Positions 1 through 45,477 of a stretch of 64,000 bases of DNA are shown piece by piece. Both the position numbers and the translations under genes were made by a program. The first letter of the stretch is position 1; each line of letters opens with the position of its first letter. This DNA is from Treponema sp. GTDB lineage: Bacteria; Spirochaetota; Spirochaetia; Treponematales; Treponemataceae. Location of the stretch: the NCBI GenBank assembly GCA_024687165.1, contig JAILEY010000067.1, positions 1 to 64,000 on the forward strand, read 5' to 3'. Below the pieces are notes generated by a model. It ran no database searches, was not told the DNA's origin, and worked only from the letters and a program-made list of their open reading frames with translations.

Positions 1-110
1 TTGCAGTCGCGAAAGCGACATGTTTAATAGTTACTTTGCAACAAACAGTATATAGATGCTGTACAGCATCGGTTTTGGACTGCTCAACACGACTGGGAGC
101 AAATTTTATT
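1..110. repeat. Nested-palindrome repeat, copy 1 (cut by window start)
   Basis: This is one end of the dispersed element seen complete at 5346-5505, in the opposite orientation. About 105 bases match that copy with only scattered differences. Visible parts are a GTCGC-gaaa-GCGAC hairpin (7-20), the arm TGCAACAAACAGTATAT (about 37-53), the palindrome GATGCTGTACAGCATC (55-70), TGCTCAAC (81-88) and the terminal GCAAATTTTATT (99-110). It ends two bases before the stop codon of the regulator gene on the minus strand. No protein is encoded. The left part lies outside the window. Confidence 0.8.
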
Positions 111-5315: not shown

Positions 5316-5345
5316 TTCTTCCTAAATTTGAGTTTCTCTAAAAAT

Positions 5346-5505
5346 AATAAAATTGGCTCTCAGTCGCGTTGATCAGTCCAAAACCGATGCTGTACAGTAT
5401 CTATATACTGTTTGTTGCAAAGTAACTATTAATCATGTCGCTATCGCGACTGCAACAAACAGTATATTTTCGTCCTGCTCAACACTCCTTCGCGCCAATC
5501 TTATT
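5346..5505. repeat. Nested-palindrome repeat, complete reference copy (160 bp)
   Basis: This fills most of the 299-base gap between rnhA and the lipoprotein gene. Terminal inverted repeats are AATAAAATTGGC (5346-5357) and GCCAATCTTATT (5494-5505). Inside them lie GTTGATCAG / CTGCTCAAC, then the perfect 17-bp arms ATATACTGTTTGTTGCA (5403-5419) and TGCAACAAACAGTATAT (5451-5467). These enclose the hairpin GTCGC-tatc-GCGAC (5437-5450). A side hairpin GATGCTGTACAGTATC lies on the left flank. It has no reading frame worth calling. It could be a non-autonomous mobile element or a structured intergenic repeat. No transposase and no clear target-site duplication are visible. Confidence 0.85.
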
Positions 5506-5614
5506 AATATTTTAAAGAATTGCAGATTTTACAATCACAATTGTAGATTTTACATTCATTTGTAATCAGCCTTGTTCTATACTTTCATCATAAAATATCA
5601 AATGGAGGCTTGAT

Positions 5615-6532: not shown

Positions 6533-6617
6533 GAAATGAGAGATTCAGAAATCAATGGAAGCGGTGAGCAGACCAAAATCGATGCTGTTCAACATTTCTT
6601 CTCGCTAATTTCATTTT
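6533..6617. repeat. Degenerate copy of the nested-palindrome repeat
   Basis: GGTGAGCAGACCAAAATCGA followed by TGCTGTTCAACA matches the GTTGAGCAGTCCAAAACCGATGCTG core of the family with several changes. Flanking ATGAAATGAGAGA and TTCTCGCTAATTTCAT are imperfectly complementary. The terminal AATAAAATTGGC is not preserved. Confidence 0.5.
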
Positions 6618-6622
6618 ATCTA

Positions 6623-6668
6623 TAAAAAAAGGCTGTCTTTGTGAAGTTTCAAACTCCGGGACAGCCTT
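6623..6668 (-). terminator. Rho-independent terminator of the 8948-6690 operon
   Basis: AAGGCTGTC (6629-6637) pairs with GACAGCCTT (6660-6668). On the minus strand the stem is followed by a run of Ts (6630-6624). It lies 22 bases after the stop of the acyl-CoA synthetase at 6690. Confidence 0.85.
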
Positions 6669-6689
6669 CTTAATTTTTATGTGATTATT

Positions 6690-16513: not shown

Positions 16514-16770
16514 AATAAAAAAACGGCTCTCAGCGAAATTCGTCCCGAAAAACGGGGCGTTTAGAATGTCAATTTTTGATAAAAGTGATAGAAGTCAACG
16601 TAAGCAGGAGTCAAGTTCGAAAAAAAATCTGCACACACGACGTAGCAAGTGCGTACATCGTGCCGTAGGGCGAAGCGCGGAAGCCTTTTTTCGGGCTTGA
16701 CTCCTGCTGTGAGTTGATTTCTGTGTATTTTATTTTGGACTGCACAACGCGACTGGAAGCCAATTTTATT
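16514..16770. repeat. Composite nested-palindrome element (257 bp)
   Basis: This fills the first two thirds of the 387-base gap 16507-16893. The left end AATAAAAAAACGGCTCTCAG resembles the left end of the 5346 copy, and the right end GCGACTGGAA + GCCAATTTTATT (16759-16770) is the family end. The interior is unique: imperfect 35-base arms 16591-16625 and 16687-16721 (core GCAGGAGTCAAG / CTTGACTCCTGC) enclose a GC-rich stretch with its own CACGACGTA / TACATCGTG hairpin. The rest of the gap (16771-16893) is AT-rich and I see nothing else in it. Confidence 0.7.
16541..16562 (+). terminator. Possible terminator of the activase gene
   Basis: CGTCCCG and CGGGGCG (16541-16559) form a 7-bp stem with an AAAAA loop, 34 bases after the activase stop. 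Only three Ts follow, so this is a weak intrinsic terminator at best. It lies inside the composite repeat. Confidence 0.4.
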
Positions 16771-19007: not shown

Positions 19008-22000
19008 GTGTTTGTTGCTATCATTATCTCAGTTTTTTCACTTGTATGTTCGATTGCGTTGAGTCGTCTTGGAAGAAAAGAAAATTCAATGGAAAAAGTT
19101 AAGCGCTATGCTGATAAGCGCATGAGTGAATTTGACGAATACTTTGAGCAGCAGCAGGAAGCCGTTAAACTTCTTGCAAATGAGCTTGAGGAAAAAGATA
19201 TTCTTGCAAAGGCCGTTGTTCAGCGTCTCCAGCAGCAGATTGAAGAATGCAGAAATACTGCCCAGGAATTTAAGAGTCCTGTTGAAGCTGTAGAAAAAAT
19301 CAACGAAAGAATTTCCGCTTATGACAATATTCTTCAGAACCTTATGGAGATGACTGTAACTGTTGAAGAAAATCTTGAAAGCGTAAAAAAAGAAGCTGCA
19401 CTCGTTGATAAGGTGAATTTTAAACTTGAACGTCAGGAAAAAACTCTTGAACTTATAGAAAAGAAAGTTAACGATGTAACAAAACAGTTTGCTGTAAAAA
19501 ATGCAGAACAGCTTAAGACAATCGGAACGGATCTTTTGAATCAGTATGAAGACCGTGCTGCAGAAATTGAAGCAACAACAGAAAAAGCAACAAAGCAGAA
19601 TGAAGCAATCATGCAGAAAATTGAAGACGATATCCGCAATGCATATTCTGCTGCAATTGAAAATGCTAAGAAGCTTGAAGACGAGGCTTTTTCTCAGCTT
19701 AATGAAGAATCACAGAAGAGAATCAATGAATGTCTTTCAGAAGTTGATGCTCAGACAAAACAGATTACTGCAATCATCGATACAAAAATTTCTGATACAC
19801 AGCAGGCACTTCACAATAAAACAGAAGAACTTAATTCATCGTTAAAAGAACAGACAGAAGAAATTGAACAGAAGTTTGATGAACGAATCAATCGCTTTGG
19901 AACTCAGCTTGAAGCTCATTCAAATGTACTTGAAGAGCAGTGGGGAAAGAAACTTTCATCTCTTGAAGAATTCATTGTTGACCGATCAAGAAATTTTGAT
20001 TCTGAACTTGAGGATTCTACAAATAAAATCAGCGAAGAATTTAAAACAAAGATTTCTGATCTCCAGGATAAAGTTTCAGGTACAGCAGAAAATTTAAGCT
20101 CAGAAATTGAATCTAAAATCAATGTTCTTTCTGAATCCGTTGTACGTACTACATCTTCTATTGATGAAAAACTCAATGCTCGCCTTGATGTAATTGAATC
20201 AAATGTTAATGAAAAAACTGCCGCTCTTCAGGAAAGTGCAGAAAGTCAGATTGCAAATATTCAGCAGAACGCGGATGAAAAAATTGCTGAAGTTCGTCTT
20301 GCTGCAGAAGAAAAAATTTCTGAGGTTAAGCAGACTGTTGAAGATACAACATCAAATCTTGATACTGAACTTACTGAAAGAATTAATGAAGTTTCTGAAA
20401 ATCTTGCACAGAAAATTTCTGCATATGAAGAAAAAACTGCCGCCTTTGAACAGCAGCTTTCTGAGCGTACGGAAAAAATCGATTCTGTTCTTGCTGAAAA
20501 TGCAGACGGATTTGAATCAAAACTTGCAGCAAAAATCGAGGAACTTGAAGCAGCTCTTAATGATAAAACTGAAACTTTCGGTTATGCAATGACAGATAAA
20601 ACTGACAGCCTTTATTCACAGCTTGATGATAAGGTTAATGAACTTGAATCTCTTTTCAGAAATAACACGGAATCAATTGCTGATAATTTTAATTCACGTA
20701 CAACTGATCTTGAAAATTCTCTTTCAAGCAGAATTGAAGAAGTAAATTATAATGTAGACAATATTGCTAAGGACGTTGCAAGACAGGTTGAAGAAAAAAC
20801 AATGTCTGTTACACAGCAGTTCAAGGATTCTTCTACAAACCTCACTCAGTTCTTTGAAGAAAAAGTTAAAGAACTTGAGGATACTTACAATGCAAAAACA
20901 AAGCAGCTTCGTGAAACTCTGGATTCAAGCGTCGAATCTGTAGATTCTGAAATGAAGAAAAGAACTGTTTCAATCGTTACTTTGTTCAATGAAAAATCAA
21001 CAGAAATGAATGATAAGATGAAGCAGAAATTCTCTTCTCTTAACGAAGATCTTTCAAAAAATACAGAAGATATAAATTCAAAAATTAAGACAAAAATTAC
21101 TTCAATAAATGAAGGCGTTGAAAATTTAGTCTCAAAGACTGAAGAAGGTTTGAAACATAGAATCCAGAATTTTGCAGATTCATTTGCAAGAAAGTCTGAA
21201 TCAGTTGACGCACAGATTAAGAAAAATCTCAAGGAACTTGATGATCGTGCACTTTCAATTTCTACTGATATTAAAAACAGAACGGAAGGCCTTGAGGATG
21301 ATGTTCGACGCAGACTTACAAAGATTACAGATGATGTTGCAGAACAGACAGCAGCTGCAGTTGAAAAATATAAGTCGGTAACTTCTACATATTCTCAGGA
21401 TATTGAAGACAGAACTGACAGTCTTCGCCGCGAACTTGCAGAAAGAACAGAAGCTCTTGAAAATCAGATTCGTCAGGAATCAGAAAGTGTTGAAAGCAGA
21501 CTTAAGTCTTTGTCTGAAAATATTGATAATCAGACAAGCGGTGCAATGGAAGAATACAAAAATGTTGTTTCAAATTATCTTCAGCAGATTGATGAAAAGA
21601 CACGTCAGCTTGAGACAGATGTTGAAGAGAAAAAAAATGTGCTTGAAAATTCTGTAGGAAACTATCTTCAGAAAATCGACGAGAAAACACGCCAGCTTGA
21701 AGAAGGCGTAGAAAACAGAAAGAATGATTTTGAAAATTCTTTTGCAAATTATATTCAGCAGATTGAAGATAAAGCACAGCAGCTTGAAACAGATGTTGAA
21801 AGAAGAAAAGGTGAGCTTGAAACTTCTGTTGCAAATGCAGCCTCAAATATCGACATGCAGACTGGTGAAATTAAAGATCATCTTGAAGAACGTGTTGGTG
21901 AGCTGAAAGAAATGATTAAGGATGCTGCTTCTGGAATTGAAGAACAGGTTTCAAATCTTTCTGCCGAAGCTGATGAAACTGTAAAATCTCTTACTGCAAC

Positions 22001-24608
22001 AACAAAAGAAAGTGCTCAGCGTCTTGTTGAACTTGAACAGAACGTTGGTGAAAAAGCAAAAGAGATTGAAGCAAAGTACGATGTAAAATTCAACGATATT
22101 GTTTCAAAGCTTGAAAAAGAAGAAACGGATGCTTATGCTCAGTTCTCTTCAATGAGTTCTGCAAATCTTGAAAAATATAAAAAGGATGTTCAGGATCGTG
22201 TAGATCAGATGCATTCTGAAATTAAAAATACTCTTGGTGAACTTGATTCTAAAACCCGAGAGCTTAATGAAAGTCTTTCTTCTACAGTTCTTGAAATTAG
22301 AACTAAATACGAGCAGGTTGAAACAGAAGCAAGAGATGTTTCTCAGCGAATTGAAGCAGAAACTTCAGAAAATTCTCAGAAGCTTGAAAAACTTACTGCA
22401 GAAATCCAGGATAGAATTAACAGCCTTAATGCTAATCTTGCTGAAACAGTTCGCAGTATGGCAATCGAATATGACTCAAGACAGACTAAGCATCTTGCAG
22501 AACTTGATGATCAGCTTGAGTTGTATAAAAAGGAAATGGAGTATCGCTTCAAGAAACTTAATTCCGCTGGTGCAGATGTAGATAAACTTGAAGCATCGCT
22601 GAGAAAACTCATGGATCAGAGTCAGAAAAAAGTTATGGGTGATTTTGAAAAGTTTACTCAAAGCGTTACAAAGTCCCAGTCTGATTTTGAGGACGGAATT
22701 GCCGCTCAGCATTCAAAAGTAAAAAATGAACTTGATACAGTTCAGTCTTCCCTTGATGAAATAAAGAAGAAGGCCGCTGCAAACATGAGCGCTAAGGTTA
22801 AGGTCTTTGAGGATTCATTTGCACAGGAACTTGTAAAACGTCAGGATGCAATTCAGGAAAAATTCAATCTCTGGAAAACAAAGTTTGATAATGAGTTCTC
22901 TGGATTTACTGAAGAATATGAAGAAAAACGAGTTGCCCTTGAAAATACCTATGACGCTGCACTTGCAAAGAGAATCAAGGATCTTCAGACAAAGACAATG
23001 GATCAGGAAAAGAAATTCCAGGTTGCACTTATGACAGGACAGACTGCAATTCAGGAGCAGATTAATACTGTTAACCAGAAGATTCATGATTTCATGGAAC
23101 AGTATAAAAATGAATTGAAGTCTACTATTGATAATGCAAACAGTTATCTTAAAACTGAAACAGAAGGTTACAATAACCGCATGAATGATCAGCTTGATAG
23201 AACAGAGCGCGAACTCAATCAGAAGATTGAAAATATTCATGACATTCTTATTTCAAAGCAGGAAAGTCAGGCTGCAACAATTGATGCTGCGGTTCAGGAA
23301 TTTGAAGGCTGGAAGAAAAGAATTAAGGGGCAGTATGATGAATCTTCTGCACAGGTTGAAGATCAGCTTAAGCTTCTTGCAGAAACAAACGAACAGAAGC
23401 TTTCAGATCTTCAGACTAATCTTACTTCTGCAACAAAGAGAGCCGCTGATGTTCTTGCCGAATATGACAAAAAGAGTAAATTGTTCCTTGAAGAATTCCA
23501 TGATCAGTATGAGGCAATGGCTGCAAATGTAAAGAAGTTTGCTGATGAGCAGAATGAATTTGCTGAAGAACGTGCAAAGGAGCTTAAGAAAGATTTCAAT
23601 GTTAAGGCTGCAGAATATTCTGACTTCTACAGAAAATCTTTTGACAAGTTGAATTCTGATACAAACAACATGCAGATTAAGATTGATGAAATCAATAAGA
23701 GCATTGCGAAGTTTGTTTCTGAATCTTCTGTTTTTGATAAAGCTGATTCTCTTAAAAAGCAGCTTGAAGATTCTATTCAGAGTCTTGAGCGTGAAATTAC
23801 AGAAGTTAAAACCTTTGGTGAAAAAATTGCAGATATCAAAACTCAGCAGCTTCAGCTTGATAAATATGCAACACAGATTAATGCCAAACTTAATGCATAC
23901 AGTGAAGATAAATCAAGGATTGACAGTATTGATTATAAGTTTGAGACACTCAAAAACCTTAGCGACGGAATGGAAGCTAAAATCAACGAAATGACAACTA
24001 TGAAGGATTCCATTATCAACATGCAGGCCAGTGTAAGAAAGTTCCAGGACGGTCTTACAAAAATGGAAGCAAAATTTGACCGCATCGAAGGTAAGAGTGA
24101 GACAATCGACAGAATCACAGAAGAGGTTGATCAGTCATTTGAAAATATCGCTAATCTTGAAAAGAGACTTAGTGAATGTTCTAGCATGATGGAAAATATG
24201 CCTTCTGATATTGAAGTGATGCAGTCGGATATTCAGCGCATTCTTGATAATAATGAAAAAATTAATGATGCCGTTGATAAGGTAACTTCACTTACCAAGT
24301 TGATTGAAAAAGCAGAAGAAAGAATTGATGTTATTACAACGACTAAAAAAGGCTTTGATAATACTGAAGCTCATCTTAAAAAGCTCTATGATGAAGTTGA
24401 AGAAAAACTTGAGCTCGTTCATTCAATTACAAAGAGTGAAATCAAGAAGAATGGCGGTAATGTTGAGAATTCAAGAATTACACCTAAGAAGAGAAGTGAT
24501 ATTCTTAAGCTTCATAAAGAGGGCTGGTCAGATGCAGAAATTTCCAAGAGCATGGGAATTGAAATTGAAGTTATCAAGGGAATTGTAGAATTCGGTTCTG
24601 ACAGTTAA
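19008..24608 (+). CDS. Giant spirochaetal coiled-coil protein (SpiroCoCo type)
   Basis: 1866 residues, GTG start with GGGTGGGG upstream. The N-terminal ~20 residues (VAIIISVFSLVCSIAL) form one membrane helix, so the long rest probably extends on one face of the membrane. Residues ~30-1800 are almost uninterrupted heptad-rich coiled coil, dominated by E, K, Q, S and short hydrophobics, with no proline-rich break. Three exact-length 29-residue tandem repeats occupy residues 857-943 (21576-21836). The last ~45 residues (KKRSDILKLHKEGWSDAEIS, KSMGIEIEVIKGIVEFG) look like a small helix-turn-helix. The size and layout match the spirochaete-specific SpiroCoCo family; a role in cell shape or envelope organisation is plausible but unproven. 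Confidence 0.88.
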   Translation: MFVAIIISVFSLVCSIALSRLGRKENSMEKVKRYADKRMSEFDEYFEQQQEAVKLLANELEEKDILAKAVVQRLQQQIEECRNTAQEFKSPVEAVEKINERISAYDNILQNLMEMTVTVEENLESVKKEAALVDKVNFKLERQEKTLELIEKKVNDVTKQFAVKNAEQLKTIGTDLLNQYEDRAAEIEATTEKATKQNEAIMQKIEDDIRNAYSAAIENAKKLEDEAFSQLNEESQKRINECLSEVDAQTKQITAIIDTKISDTQQALHNKTEELNSSLKEQTEEIEQKFDERINRFGTQLEAHSNVLEEQWGKKLSSLEEFIVDRSRNFDSELEDSTNKISEEFKTKISDLQDKVSGTAENLSSEIESKINVLSESVVRTTSSIDEKLNARLDVIESNVNEKTAALQESAESQIANIQQNADEKIAEVRLAAEEKISEVKQTVEDTTSNLDTELTERINEVSENLAQKISAYEEKTAAFEQQLSERTEKIDSVLAENADGFESKLAAKIEELEAALNDKTETFGYAMTDKTDSLYSQLDDKVNELESLFRNNTESIADNFNSRTTDLENSLSSRIEEVNYNVDNIAKDVARQVEEKTMSVTQQFKDSSTNLTQFFEEKVKELEDTYNAKTKQLRETLDSSVESVDSEMKKRTVSIVTLFNEKSTEMNDKMKQKFSSLNEDLSKNTEDINSKIKTKITSINEGVENLVSKTEEGLKHRIQNFADSFARKSESVDAQIKKNLKELDDRALSISTDIKNRTEGLEDDVRRRLTKITDDVAEQTAAAVEKYKSVTSTYSQDIEDRTDSLRRELAERTEALENQIRQESESVESRLKSLSENIDNQTSGAMEEYKNVVSNYLQQIDEKTRQLETDVEEKKNVLENSVGNYLQKIDEKTRQLEEGVENRKNDFENSFANYIQQIEDKAQQLETDVERRKGELETSVANAASNIDMQTGEIKDHLEERVGELKEMIKDAASGIEEQVSNLSAEADETVKSLTATTKESAQRLVELEQNVGEKAKEIEAKYDVKFNDIVSKLEKEETDAYAQFSSMSSANLEKYKKDVQDRVDQMHSEIKNTLGELDSKTRELNESLSSTVLEIRTKYEQVETEARDVSQRIEAETSENSQKLEKLTAEIQDRINSLNANLAETVRSMAIEYDSRQTKHLAELDDQLELYKKEMEYRFKKLNSAGADVDKLEASLRKLMDQSQKKVMGDFEKFTQSVTKSQSDFEDGIAAQHSKVKNELDTVQSSLDEIKKKAAANMSAKVKVFEDSFAQELVKRQDAIQEKFNLWKTKFDNEFSGFTEEYEEKRVALENTYDAALAKRIKDLQTKTMDQEKKFQVALMTGQTAIQEQINTVNQKIHDFMEQYKNELKSTIDNANSYLKTETEGYNNRMNDQLDRTERELNQKIENIHDILISKQESQAATIDAAVQEFEGWKKRIKGQYDESSAQVEDQLKLLAETNEQKLSDLQTNLTSATKRAADVLAEYDKKSKLFLEEFHDQYEAMAANVKKFADEQNEFAEERAKELKKDFNVKAAEYSDFYRKSFDKLNSDTNNMQIKIDEINKSIAKFVSESSVFDKADSLKKQLEDSIQSLEREITEVKTFGEKIADIKTQQLQLDKYATQINAKLNAYSEDKSRIDSIDYKFETLKNLSDGMEAKINEMTTMKDSIINMQASVRKFQDGLTKMEAKFDRIEGKSETIDRITEEVDQSFENIANLEKRLSECSSMMENMPSDIEVMQSDIQRILDNNEKINDAVDKVTSLTKLIEKAEERIDVITTTKKGFDNTEAHLKKLYDEVEEKLELVHSITKSEIKKNGGNVENSRITPKKRSDILKLHKEGWSDAEISKSMGIEIEVIKGIVEFGSDS
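21576..21836 (+). repeat. Three 87-bp in-frame tandem repeats in the coiled-coil gene
   Basis: Each unit encodes 29 residues of the pattern Y(L/I)QxI(D/E)(E/D)KxxQLExxVExxKxxxExSxxN. Units are 21576-21662, 21663-21749 and 21750-21836. They diverge at the base level, so this is an old duplication, and 29 is near four heptads plus one residue (a hendecad-like shift). Confidence 0.85.
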
Positions 24609-27571: not shown

Positions 27572-27652
27572 TTAGTCTTGATTTTGAATTTTTATAGATT
27601 TAATAAAATTGGCGACTGGAAGCCAATTTTATTATTTTTTTAGATAAACTCG
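27572..27652. repeat. Minimal copy of the nested-palindrome repeat
   Basis: The perfect 12-bp ends AATAAAATTGGC (27602-27613) and GCCAATTTTATT (27622-27633) enclose only GACTGGAA. Flanks are also shared with the copy near 40100: TTAGTCTT...TAGAT on the left and AGATAAACTCGA (27641-27652) on the right, so the true unit is longer than the terminal palindrome. The remaining gap between 27477 and 27710 holds the promoter of the Cas2-like gene and nothing else I can name. Confidence 0.75.
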
Positions 27653-40056: not shown

Positions 40057-40199
40057 TTAGTCTTAATTTCGAATTATGTAGATATAATAAAATTGGCGCG
40101 AAGGAGTGTTGAGCAGTATATAGATGCAGTACAGCATCGGTTTTGTAATGCTCAACGCGACTGGAAGCCAATTTTATTAATTTGTCAGATAAACTCGAA
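40057..40199. repeat. Nested-palindrome repeat copy between clpC and a lipoprotein gene
   Basis: The inner element is 40086-40178: AATAAAATTGGC...GCCAATTTTATT, with GTTGAGCA / TGCTCAAC inside, then GATGCAGTACAGCATC. Flanks shared with the copy at 27572-27652 extend it to TTAGTCTT (40057) and AGATAAACTCGA (40187-40198). The right flank overlaps the stop codon and the last three codons of the convergent lipoprotein gene. Confidence 0.8.
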
Positions 40200-40664
40200 G
40201 TTCAGGTTAGTAAACAAAGGAACCTGATTTTTTTCTGTCCAATGCTGAATCGATGTACCAGAAGTAAATCCTAAACTTTGTATTGAGTCACTTGATGACT
40301 GAATTGTGAAAGAATCATTTGTTGTTCCGTTTGAAGTGTTTGTAAGACTTCCTGTAACTGTGTATTCAGTACCGCTTCTTGTACCGCTGAAAGTATAAGA
40401 ATTACCATTCTTAGTTTTTGTAAGTGTAACAAAAGTTCCGTCATACAAATCGCCGCCTTTTTCAGCTTCTGTTGTCGACAAAATAGCAACATCAGAATTG
40501 TCAGCAGTACGTATCATTGCGCTGTTAGTTCCATAATCTGTGAAAAAATAATGCATATTGTAGCTTGAACCAGAGCCGTTTGGTGCTTCATCAGAACAGC
40601 TTGTAATAAAACATGCAGACAATAATACACAGAGCATCATTGTTAATTTTGAAAATAATCTCAT
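40185..40664 (-). CDS. Small lipoprotein of unknown function
   Basis: 159 residues from the ATG at 40664, fixed by GGAGG seven bases upstream. The signal peptide ends in a lipobox (FITSC). The mature part is low in charge, rich in Ser, Thr and Gly, and strand-like (GTFVTLTKTKNGNSYTFSG, then TRSGTEYTVTGSLTN), suggesting a small beta-sandwich. No known family is recognised. The last residues (EFI) and stop lie in the shared flank of a repeat element, so the original C terminus may have been replaced. A perfect 22-bp palindrome lies about 37 bases upstream of the start codon and may be an operator. Confidence 0.78.
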   Translation of the reverse strand: MRLFSKLTMMLCVLLSACFITSCSDEAPNGSGSSYNMHYFFTDYGTNSAMIRTADNSDVAILSTTEAEKGGDLYDGTFVTLTKTKNGNSYTFSGTRSGTEYTVTGSLTNTSNGTTNDSFTIQSSSDSIQSLGFTSGTSIQHWTEKNQVPLFTNLNFEFI

Positions 40665-42822: not shown

Positions 42823-45477
42823 ATGGCAGAAGAATCAAAGAAGACAGGTGCTGTCTTAAACAAACAGGTTAAATCGGGAGACTCAAATAGCACTTCTGGA
42901 GCTGAAACAAAAAAGAAAGTCGTAATCAAAAGAAAGACTGTTGCTCCATCTGCATCTTCAACAGATAGTGCAAAAAAAGAGCAGAAAAAAGTTCTTCATA
43001 TTGTAAAGAAGAGCAATGATGCTGTTAAAACTGGTGCAGAAAAACAGAATGCTTCAAAAGATATATCTTCTGATCAGAAGCCGGCTGCAGATAAACCTGT
43101 TTCTACACGTCCTCAGGTACAGACTCTTGAAATTTCAAGCTCACGTCCAAATGTTAAGGCTGGAAATTTAAGTGGTGGCGGAAGAGGCCGTTACAACAAT
43201 GGTTACGGAAGTGGTTCGTATAATAACTACGGAAACCGTAACGGCGGAAATTCTTTCACCGGTGCTCAGGCAAGAGAAGGATATCAGAACCGCGAACGTC
43301 AGGGTGGTTATAACAGAGACGGTCAGAATGGTGGCTTTAACCGCGGAAATGGTCAGGGTGGCTTTAACCGCGGAAATGGTCAGAGTGGCTTTAACCGTGG
43401 AAACGGACAGGGCGGCTTTAACCGTGGAAATGGTCAGGGTGGTTTTAATCGTGGAAACGGACAGGGCGGATTCAGTGGTCAGCGTTCGACCGGATTTGCT
43501 CCTGCAGCCTCTGCAATTCCTACAAAACAGCTTCCTGCAAAGAAACAGCAGTTTAAGGGAAAGAAGCAGGTTTACAATAGAAAAGATAAAGAAGATTTCT
43601 TTGACGAAGAAGAACTTTATCAGAACAAGAAGAAGACTGTTGCCGTAAGTGCAGTTCCAGAATCAATTGAAATCATGGAAACTGTCAGCATCTCTGATCT
43701 TGCACGCAAAATGAATCTTAAGGCAAGTGAGATTATCGGTAAGCTGATGGGCATGGGAATGATGGTTACAATCAACCAGTCAATCGACTCTGACACAGCT
43801 ACAATTCTTGCAGAAGAATACAATTGTAAAGTTCACCTCATCAGTCTTTATGATGAAACAGTTATTGAAAGTGATGCAGGTTCCTCAGAAGAAAGAACTC
43901 GTCCTCCAATCGTTACTGTCATGGGACACGTTGACCACGGTAAGACAAAGACTCTTGATGCAATCCGTAATGCAAACGTTGCAGCAGGAGAAGCCGGTGG
44001 TATTACACAGAAAATCGGTGCTTATCAGATTTCTGGATCTAAGGGTGTAATTACATTCCTTGATACTCCGGGTCATGAAGCATTTACAATGATGCGTGCC
44101 CGTGGTGCTCAGATTACAGATATTGTTGTTCTTGTTGTTGCAGCAGATGACGGTGTAATGCCTCAGACTCGTGAAGCAATCAACCATGCAAAAGATGCAA
44201 AGGTTCCAATTATCGTTGCAGTTAACAAGTGTGATAAGCCTGAAGCAAATCCTGAAAAGGTTATGACTCAGCTTTCTGAACTTGGACTTACTCCTGAAGA
44301 ATGGGGTGGAGATACACAGTACGTAAAGATTTCTGCCCTCAAGAGAGAAGGTATTGATGATCTTCTTGATGCAATTCTTATTCAGGCTGAAATGCTTGAA
44401 CTTAAGGCACAGTATGACTGTCGTGCTGAAGGTAAGGTTATTGAAAGCCGCACAGATCAGGGACGTGGTGTTGTTGCATCTGTTGTTGTTCAGCGTGGTA
44501 CACTCAAAATTGGTGACCCTCTTGTTGCAGGCATTTATTCAGGTCGTGTTCGTGCAATGTTCGACGACAAGGGTCGCAAGATTACAGAAGCAGGTCCTTC
44601 AATGCCTGTTGAAGTTCTCGGTCTTGAAAGCATGCCAAACGCAGGTGACCCGATCCAGGTTACAGAATCAGAAAAAGACGCACGTGCATTTGCAGCAAAA
44701 CGTCAGGAACTCAAGAGATTTGAAGCCGCTAAAGCCGTTAAAAAGACAACTCTTGATTCCCTTTACTCAGATATTGAAAGAAGCGAAGTTAAGACTCTTA
44801 AGGTTATCATTAAGGCTGATCTTCAGGGGTCTGCAGAAGCTCTTAAGACTTCTCTTGAAAAGCTTTCTACAAAAGAAATCAGACTTTCTGTTATTCACTC
44901 AAGTGCGGGTGCAATCAACGAGAGTGATGTTACTCTTGCAGCGGCAGACAGAGAAGGAAGCAGCGTTCTTATTATCGGTTTCAATGTTCGTCCTACACCA
45001 AAAGCAAAGGAACTTGCTGAACAGGAAAAAGTTGAAATCCTTAAGTACAATATCATCTATAAGTGTGTCGAGGAAATGCAGCAGGCTATGGAAGGTATGT
45101 TGCAGCCGGATACAAAAGAAGAGACAACTGGTACTGCAGAAGTTCGCGATACATTCAAGGTTCCAAAAATCGGTCTCATTGCAGGTTGTTACGTTACAGA
45201 CGGTATCATCAAGCGTACATGCAGCGTAAACGTTATTCGTGACGGTGTTGTTATCCATACAGGAAAACTTGCATCCCTCAAGAGATTCAAGGATGACGTT
45301 AAGGAAGTTAAAGACGGATTTGAATGTGGTATCGGTCTTGAAAACTGGCAGGACATTCAGGTTGGCGACCAGCTTGAAGCTTTCGAAATTGTTGAGATTA
45401 AACGCAAGCTCGGAAAGACTCTTGTTGAAGAAGAAGCTGAAGCTGCAAAAAAATCTGGCGAAGTTGTAGAGGAATAA
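42823..45477 (+). CDS. infB: Translation initiation factor IF-2
   Basis: 884 residues. The N terminus is basic and low-complexity, with five 9-residue repeats GGFNRGNGQ at residues 170-214. An IF2-N helix domain follows (about 285-340, [24 protein letters not shown]), then the GTPase domain ([43 protein letters not shown]) and domains II-IV, ending in the fMet-tRNA-binding region ([15 protein letters not shown]). It positions initiator tRNA on the 30S subunit. It lies 18 bases after nusA and 3 bases before rbfA. Confidence 0.96.
43330..43464 (+). repeat. Five 27-bp tandem repeats inside infB
   Basis: Five in-frame units of about 27 bases (first GGTGGCTTTAACCGCGGAAA + TGGTCAG) encode GGFNRGNGQ. 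Third-base differences between units (CGC/CGT, GGT/GGC, AAT/AAC) show selection on the protein. A unit-number change would keep the frame. Confidence 0.9.

Follow-up and report, generated by a model that had tools for sequence, protein, structure and literature searches.

The window, as the 64-kb stretch of Treponema DNA analysed here is called, carries several copies of one dispersed palindromic element, which differ in completeness and orientation, together with an unrelated hairpin. The copy under study occupies positions 5346-5505 on the minus strand, and the features assigned in the window are the following:

1..110, plus strand: 3' two-thirds of a full copy (covariance-model match of 103 bits, model positions 51-159, flagged as cut at the 5' end)
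5318..5345, minus strand: outer terminal repeat on the 3' side of the element, of the TTCCTAAATTTGAG... type (assigned from sequence)
5346..5505, minus strand: full-length structured core of 158-160 nt (covariance-model match of 176 bits, E 3.9e-41; fold z-score -10.2)
5506..5533, minus strand: outer terminal repeat on the 5' side, strongly decayed (assigned from sequence, at the same offset as in other copies)
6545..6615, minus strand: probable decayed deletion derivative, marginal (8.2 bits in an unfiltered search; sequence resembling the copy at 40086)
16603..16708, no strand assigned: foreign inverted repeat with 23-nt arms, 91% complementary, nested in the chimera at 16514-16770
16733..16770, plus strand: right end of a family member (TTTTGGACTGCACAACGCGACTGGAAGCCAATTTTATT), a 90% inverted match to 5345-5383
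27575..27601, plus strand: left outer terminal repeat GTCTTGATTTTGAATT... (assigned from sequence)
27602..27633, plus strand: 32-bp minimal derivative that has lost nearly the whole core (covariance-model match of 24.8 bits)
40060..40085, plus strand: left outer terminal repeat GTCTTAATTTCGAATT..., an exact match to GYCYTAAWTTCGA
40086..40178, plus strand: 93-bp derivative that has lost the main P3-P4 hairpin (covariance-model match of 74.5 bits, and sequence)
40179..40206, plus strand: right outer terminal repeat ...AACTCGAAGTTCAGG (assigned from sequence, at the offset seen in other copies)

The outer end of the repeat at 5318..5345 was placed 27-29 nt beyond the core by means of the target duplications of sister copies. 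The first-pass annotation of this DNA had described a dispersed repeat family with shared ends, and such a family is present: the pattern AATAAAATTGGC, with at most one mismatch, occurs eight times in the window against 1.37 expected, and none of 100 shuffles reached eight. The nested inverted repeats reported there are reflected in fold z-scores of -10.2 as RNA and -8.2 as DNA.

The extents of several copies had to be redrawn. The copy at 1-110 belongs to the family, and its supposedly different content is that of a truncated element, since it lacks its 5' part because contig C85, whose first base is also that of the window, starts inside the element. The copy given as beginning at 27572 is likewise a member, reduced to the 32-bp hairpin at 27602-27633 plus outer ends; what remains is a perfect hairpin with a T run behind it, a terminator-like site for which 0.1 is expected in shuffles. 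Within 16514-16770 the right part (~16733-16770) was correctly assigned, and the inner hairpin with 17-bp arms is a different palindrome. The long hairpin with 23-nt arms at 16603-16708, which has a structured interior, is unrelated to the family and matches the family model at the palindrome level only, so that it is not a family core, and a second core inside 16514-16770 was dropped on the same ground. The decayed copy proposed at 6533-6617 yielded only the marginal match of 8.2 bits, and its sequence suggests that 6545-6615 is probably a decayed deletion derivative of the family; next to it, at 6626-6671, an ordinary short hairpin precedes a T run. Elsewhere in the window, 27-bp tandem repeats at 43303-43472 encode a G/N/R-rich tract within ORF 42823-45477, and 87-bp tandem repeats at 21559-21835 lie within a 1866-aa ORF (19008-24608).

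Deletion between short direct repeats that lie at hairpin feet explains the short copies, with junction repeats CAG (40086-40178), GCG (27602-27633) and GCGA (34-bp copies). The proposal that the element gains and loses inner modules thus holds mainly for loss. Gain is occasional and occurs by nesting of palindromes, as with the foreign hairpin in 16514-16770 and an insert common to loci L316 and L351; at locus L207 a core lies within a core.

Distribution and predicted fold of the core

The genome from which the window derives measures 2.38 Mb in 87 contigs, and a search of all of it with the family ends, AATAAAATTGGC at up to one mismatch, gave 82 + 80 = 162 occurrences, compared with 14 + 16 = 30 for the reversed pattern. 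The covariance model R1, which was built on 20 copies, recovered approximately 55 full-length and 20 short copies in this genome, some of the matches being weaker reverse-strand ones, as expected of a near-palindrome. Copies oriented GCGAAGGAG-first align over about 160 columns with a mean identity of 90%. With the same model the family was found in 17 of 35 genomes of the same genus, and 23 genomes of other genera in the order gave no match. When 294 genomes of the order were searched with a broader model (R2), 50 proved to carry it; these belong to 3 of 83 genera, all within the family of the window genome; the named carrier records are rumen and gut Treponema, including isolates JC4 and C6A8. 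Copy number across one genus varies from none detected to about 80, and two genomes (G314 and G275) hold several loci with identical scores, that is, identical copies. A spread beyond the bacterial family was rejected, as all matches of the scanning patterns outside Treponema were due to chance and did not fit the covariance model. Viral contigs gave no matches to either transposon-end pattern and four short matches to the core pattern. Many contigs of genome G010, as well as the window contig at position 1, start or end inside an element; metagenome-assembled genomes thus break within it and the copy numbers are lower bounds. A second dispersed palindromic repeat (AAAAAAAATGGCGGGAAGAAAAGCAAACGGCTGTGGAGCGC...) was noticed at ~1600-1740 of locus L025 and seems to be common to the flanks of L033 and L045.

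The inner layer of the element, or cassette, is predicted to fold into a three-way junction of about 158 nt. Its outermost stem, P1, pairs an A-rich/GGC strand with a GCC/U-rich one. Between P1 and P2 lies an internal loop that is GA-rich and conserved, with GCGARGGAG facing CGACYGGRAGC. P2 is followed by the junction of a long hairpin (P3 + P4) and a short hairpin (P5), closed by GUUUYG. P4 is a tetraloop hairpin, and the P3-P4 arm includes a conserved unpaired AUAGUU.

In an alignment of 81 copies from many species, which was fitted to a model, 47 of the 53 base pairs show changes on both sides. Paired cells amount to 96.0%, compared with 75.1% in shuffles and 33-46% with a slid partner, and double-changed cells number 842 against 229; no shuffle among 500 reached the real value on any of five pairing measures. 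An independent MAFFT alignment returned the same nested structure with a consensus energy of -59.7. One strand is clearly preferred: its consensus energy is -77.8 kcal/mol, compared with -64.4 kcal/mol for the opposite strand, GU+UG cells number 93 against 26 AC+CA cells, and the same strand folds better in all 20 own-genome copies compared. This massive compensatory change across species bears out the first-pass alternative of a structured element. Base-pair composition differs along the fold, as P3, P4 and P5 contain only about 7 G-U cells among some 1,950 in alignment A3, despite frequent C-G/U-A/G-C switches, and in P2 G-U reaches about 6%. The scarcity in P3-P5 is uncommon in RNA helices and nearer to what a DNA palindrome would show. 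It suggests either that wobble pairs are not tolerated or that both arms change together, for instance by template switching, and it keeps a purely DNA-level reading alive.

The window had no match at the gathering score among the 4227 families of Rfam release 15, and a search of 15 diverse loci against Rfam at E <= 10 returned nothing meaningful. Two RNA motifs of Treponema denticola, a possible lead, are absent from the main text of PMC2864571, and no paper describing the family was found in the literature. On the modelled fold, the cassette is a putative structured-RNA family that has not been catalogued.

One cassette in two transposon skeletons

The cassette is carried in two unrelated MITE skeletons, which differ in their ends and in the length of the target duplication, and a composite of skeleton and cassette is very probably the correct description of the element. 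The skeleton of the window copies, type ii, has inverted ends of about 40 bp (GYCYTAAWTTCGA...) on both sides, and these outer repeats start 26-28 nt outside the core. In the window's genome, 6-bp target duplications stand at a fixed offset in 7 of 50 copies, although in two of these the duplication may contain end sequence; 0.82 are expected, and none of 2000 permutations reached the observed number. The duplications include TGTTTA, TATGTA, TAAATA and TAATTA. The inverted ends and the fixed-offset duplications together uphold the view that the element is a non-autonomous mobile element, and the mobile-element and structured-RNA readings, which had been offered as alternatives, both hold at once. 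Type ii ends with a duplication also occur in genome G073 (L354: TAACTA), and in G005 they occur with duplications and with the core absent; three loci of this genome (L336, L350 and L358) are MITEs with GCCCTAATTTCGA ends and a different palindromic interior.

The type i skeleton is found in relatives and has ends CAGGGCAAACGCATTATAA on both sides, a total length of 213-217 bp and exact 10-bp target duplications in at least 10 copies. In G010, 84 and 81 such ends were counted in the two orientations, and none in the control. At one locus of G031 (L315), type i ends flank a 1266-bp element with an intact ORF of 384 aa, whose product is an ISAs1 transposase (NF033564 transpos_ISAs1, E 1.3e-107; Pfam PF13808 and PF01609), and L309 is an internal-deletion derivative of that element. 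By the ends that they have in common with this intact ISAs1 element in a sister species, the type i relatives appear to be ISAs1-derived MITEs. The same derivation was rejected for the window copies, which have no CAGGGCAAACGCATTATA ends and show 6-bp rather than 10-bp duplications; the CAGGGC-type end CAGGGCAAACGCATTATA gave no matches in the window's genome. A transposase with matching ends, which the first-pass annotation had proposed to look for, was thus found for type i, and no autonomous partner was found for the type ii ends GYCYTAAWTTCGA: loci L335 and L349 carry the end without a transposase. In both, an 18-bp end, GCCCTAAATTCGAGTTTT, is followed by a common hairpin, ATTTCAGCCTG...AGGCTGAAAT, and they are possibly a further derivative of the type ii transposon. 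The L315-type transposase is itself absent or decayed in most carriers. The lack of an autonomous transposase is common for MITEs.

Comparison of cores between the two skeletons indicates that the cassette has moved between them. In G073 the type i core matches the type ii core of that genome at 83% identity and the type ii core of G077 at 91%, and it matches the type i cores of G075, G010, G006 and CAMVDX at 53-63%; between the type ii cores of G073 and those of the window's genome, identity is about 44-56%. In addition, L316 (type i) and L351 (type ii), which lie in two genomes, have the same palindromic insert of ~90 bp in the core. Cores therefore group by lineage and not by end type, which implies that the cassette has switched vehicles. 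The core, bordered by P1, has on these identities been exchanged between transposon skeletons, and the route may be recombination within P1 or a transfer in which the core itself moves.

Fate of copies, possible role and relation to known systems

Copies in the window's genome decay neutrally after insertion and freely lose the fold. The 26 copies of the youngest subfamily have 0.42 singletons per site at paired and 0.43 at unpaired positions (p = 0.89); of 36 single changes in paired positions, 28 disrupt the pairing. Single copies are thus unprotected and source lineages protected, so that the family-wide covariation would be made when elements amplify. A different picture is given by the sister species G004 and G024, in which four orthologous loci (L415/L439, L416/L438, L417/L426 and L421/L441) show six differences of G-U type, three fully compensated and two pair-breaking. 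Over these four loci, the orthologs keep their pairing, far from the four-fifths breakage of the window's genome. Three other loci first taken as orthologs (L408/L428, L410/L427 and L418/L429) were left out of the pairing count, as the same gap holds differing copies of opposite orientation in the two species; the rest of the gap is replaced and the flanking genes are up to ~99% identical. At five further G024 loci, the corresponding G004 gap contains element remnants in four cases and none in the fifth, which indicates that the insertions are old and that some have since been lost. Empty sites, which had been suggested as a source of evidence, were accordingly scarce: no relative was close enough to provide a clean one for the copies of the window's genome, and the G004 sites are mostly remnants or replacements. 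Clear target duplications were not found in G004 or G024, where the ends are presumably eroded. Orthologous copies with compensatory changes, which the first-pass annotation had named as favouring a functional RNA over a mobile element, are present at the four loci of these two species; they leave mobility standing and add that a number of old copies are being, or once were, maintained as RNA.

The position of copies relative to genes gives some indication of a role. In G004 and G024 the element often starts 5-50 bp past a stop codon, and the gene on its 5' side points at it in 28 of 37 copies (p = 0.003). Between co-directional neighbours, orientations are 14:4 in these two species and 29:12 when pooled with the window's genome (p = 0.01); the latter alone shows no significant bias (31:19, p = 0.12). 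Relative to other gaps of the same loci, the element is over-represented in convergent gaps and under-represented in divergent ones (p ~0.015 each, in a test resting on crude ORF calls); in the window's genome, divergent genes flank 11 of 50 copies. In most groups of copies a U-rich run stands behind P1, and it does so on either strand, an arrangement that resembles an intrinsic terminator in both directions and is clearest in the 32-bp derivative at 27602-27633. The T run scores 3.6 of 8 in ISAs1-type copies, compared with 5.3-5.9 in the others, and this weak run, together with the copies in divergent gaps, means that a terminator role is not universal. A 3'-end or terminator-type role of the RNA is our best guess, put forward tentatively from the position of the element's plus strand just past stop codons and from the U-rich run behind the closing stem.

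The best explanation overall, with a probability of about 0.6, is that a structured RNA-type cassette is the cargo of trans-mobilised MITEs. The cassette lies between MITE inverted ends and would be moved by a transposase acting in trans; its fold would be selected when elements amplify, since it would matter to source copies, and would sometimes be retained by the host. Placed at the 3' end of the upstream transcript, it could end, shield or insulate transcripts, and this action would make insertions near genes tolerable and so favour MITEs that carry the cassette. More speculatively, the cassette could be a genetic unit in its own right, namely a structured RNA that rides on and switches between unrelated skeletons, aids its carriers and is sometimes fixed by the host at 3' ends. 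The aiding function in that case may be transcript-end shielding or termination, RNA processing or a ribozyme-like activity. Such a unit seems conceivable, though doubtful.

The most probable alternative is a plain MITE with a DNA palindrome, in which RNA plays no role and the repeats are kept perfect by template switching between the arms during replication or by a need at the DNA level in transposition, such as a cruciform or hairpin or protein binding. The almost wholly Watson-Crick pairing of P3-P5 despite C-G/U-A switches, the neutral decay of own-genome copies and the direct-repeat deletions at hairpin feet, which are typical of palindromes, all agree with it. It is nevertheless considered unlikely, in view of the strand asymmetry in G-U over A-C cells and in folding, the sequence conservation of the unpaired stretches in the internal loop and of AUAGUU, the frequency of G-U pairs in P2 and the orientation bias towards upstream genes. 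A further alternative is a host family of regulatory or structural RNA genes, inherited vertically at fixed loci and only seemingly mobile; the pair-preserving changes between the G004 and G024 orthologs, the age of loci implied by remnants where a sister species lost the element, and the site just past stop codons would be in line with this. The fixed-offset target duplications contradict it for both type i and type ii copies, and the variation in copy number within one genus, the neutral decay in the window's genome and the identical copies at many loci make it improbable.

Transposition as a single-strand hairpin by an HUH (Y1) enzyme, as in REP/RAYT or IS200/IS605 derivatives, would fit the palindromic structure, intergenic location, high copy number and orientation bias of this family. 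Inverted ends with 6- or 10-bp duplications are instead the mark of DDE-type transposition, and the type i ends match an ISAs1 element of the DDE class, which leaves this origin very improbable. Integron attC sites were also considered and rejected, as GTTGAGC/GCTCAAC fit the core-site consensus and the order and dispersed spread do not.

Several known systems share some features with the family. REP and BIME sequences are palindromic, intergenic and often located after genes, and each REP consists of one short hairpin and is moved by a Y1 transposase; the Treponema element differs from them in having a multi-helix core of 158 nt and ends of DDE type. Very small mobile repeats that insert into other repeats occur in cyanobacteria and resemble, by description, the nested palindromes in 16514-16770, L316 and L351. 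The type i skeleton, with ends CAGGGCAAACGCATTATAA and exact 10-bp duplications, is like the insertion sequences and MITEs of the ISAs1 family. Unlike the internal-deletion derivative L309, it carries a cassette that is not IS-derived, and the window copies use different ends. With the structured RNAs of Rfam the cassette has in common a conserved secondary structure with compensatory changes, and no Rfam family matches it.

By analogy, the nearest relatives in kind appear to be ERIC, YPAL and NEMIS. ERIC/RU-1, YPAL/RU-2 and NEMIS/Correia are small mobile palindromic repeats (PMC2229807, PMC2267715), with 5'-TA-3' at their termini and one set of ends for one element (PMC2229807). The Treponema family is like these elements (127-168 bp) in its intergenic location, inverted ends, tens of dispersed copies, lack of a needed protein and stable RNA fold once transcribed. 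It differs from ERIC and NEMIS, whose hosts belong to different phyla and which are set apart here by described features, in having 6- or 10-bp target duplications instead of a terminal TA. In contrast to ERIC, YPAL and NEMIS, its fold is a three-way junction with strong covariation across species, and its core is common to two unrelated sets of ends. ERIC/NEMIS-type repeats have long been viewed as degenerate MITEs, with their RNA folds a by-product. In Treponema, an uncatalogued family of putative structured RNAs, which fragments the assemblies of its hosts, provides one fold that can be traced through about 30 species with clean covariation and on two unrelated transposon backgrounds, and among its individual copies some are observed to decay neutrally and others to be retained. 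The family thereby makes testable, for this class of repeats, whether selection acts on the RNA structure of a selfish repeat during amplification and how such repeats become host 3'-end elements.
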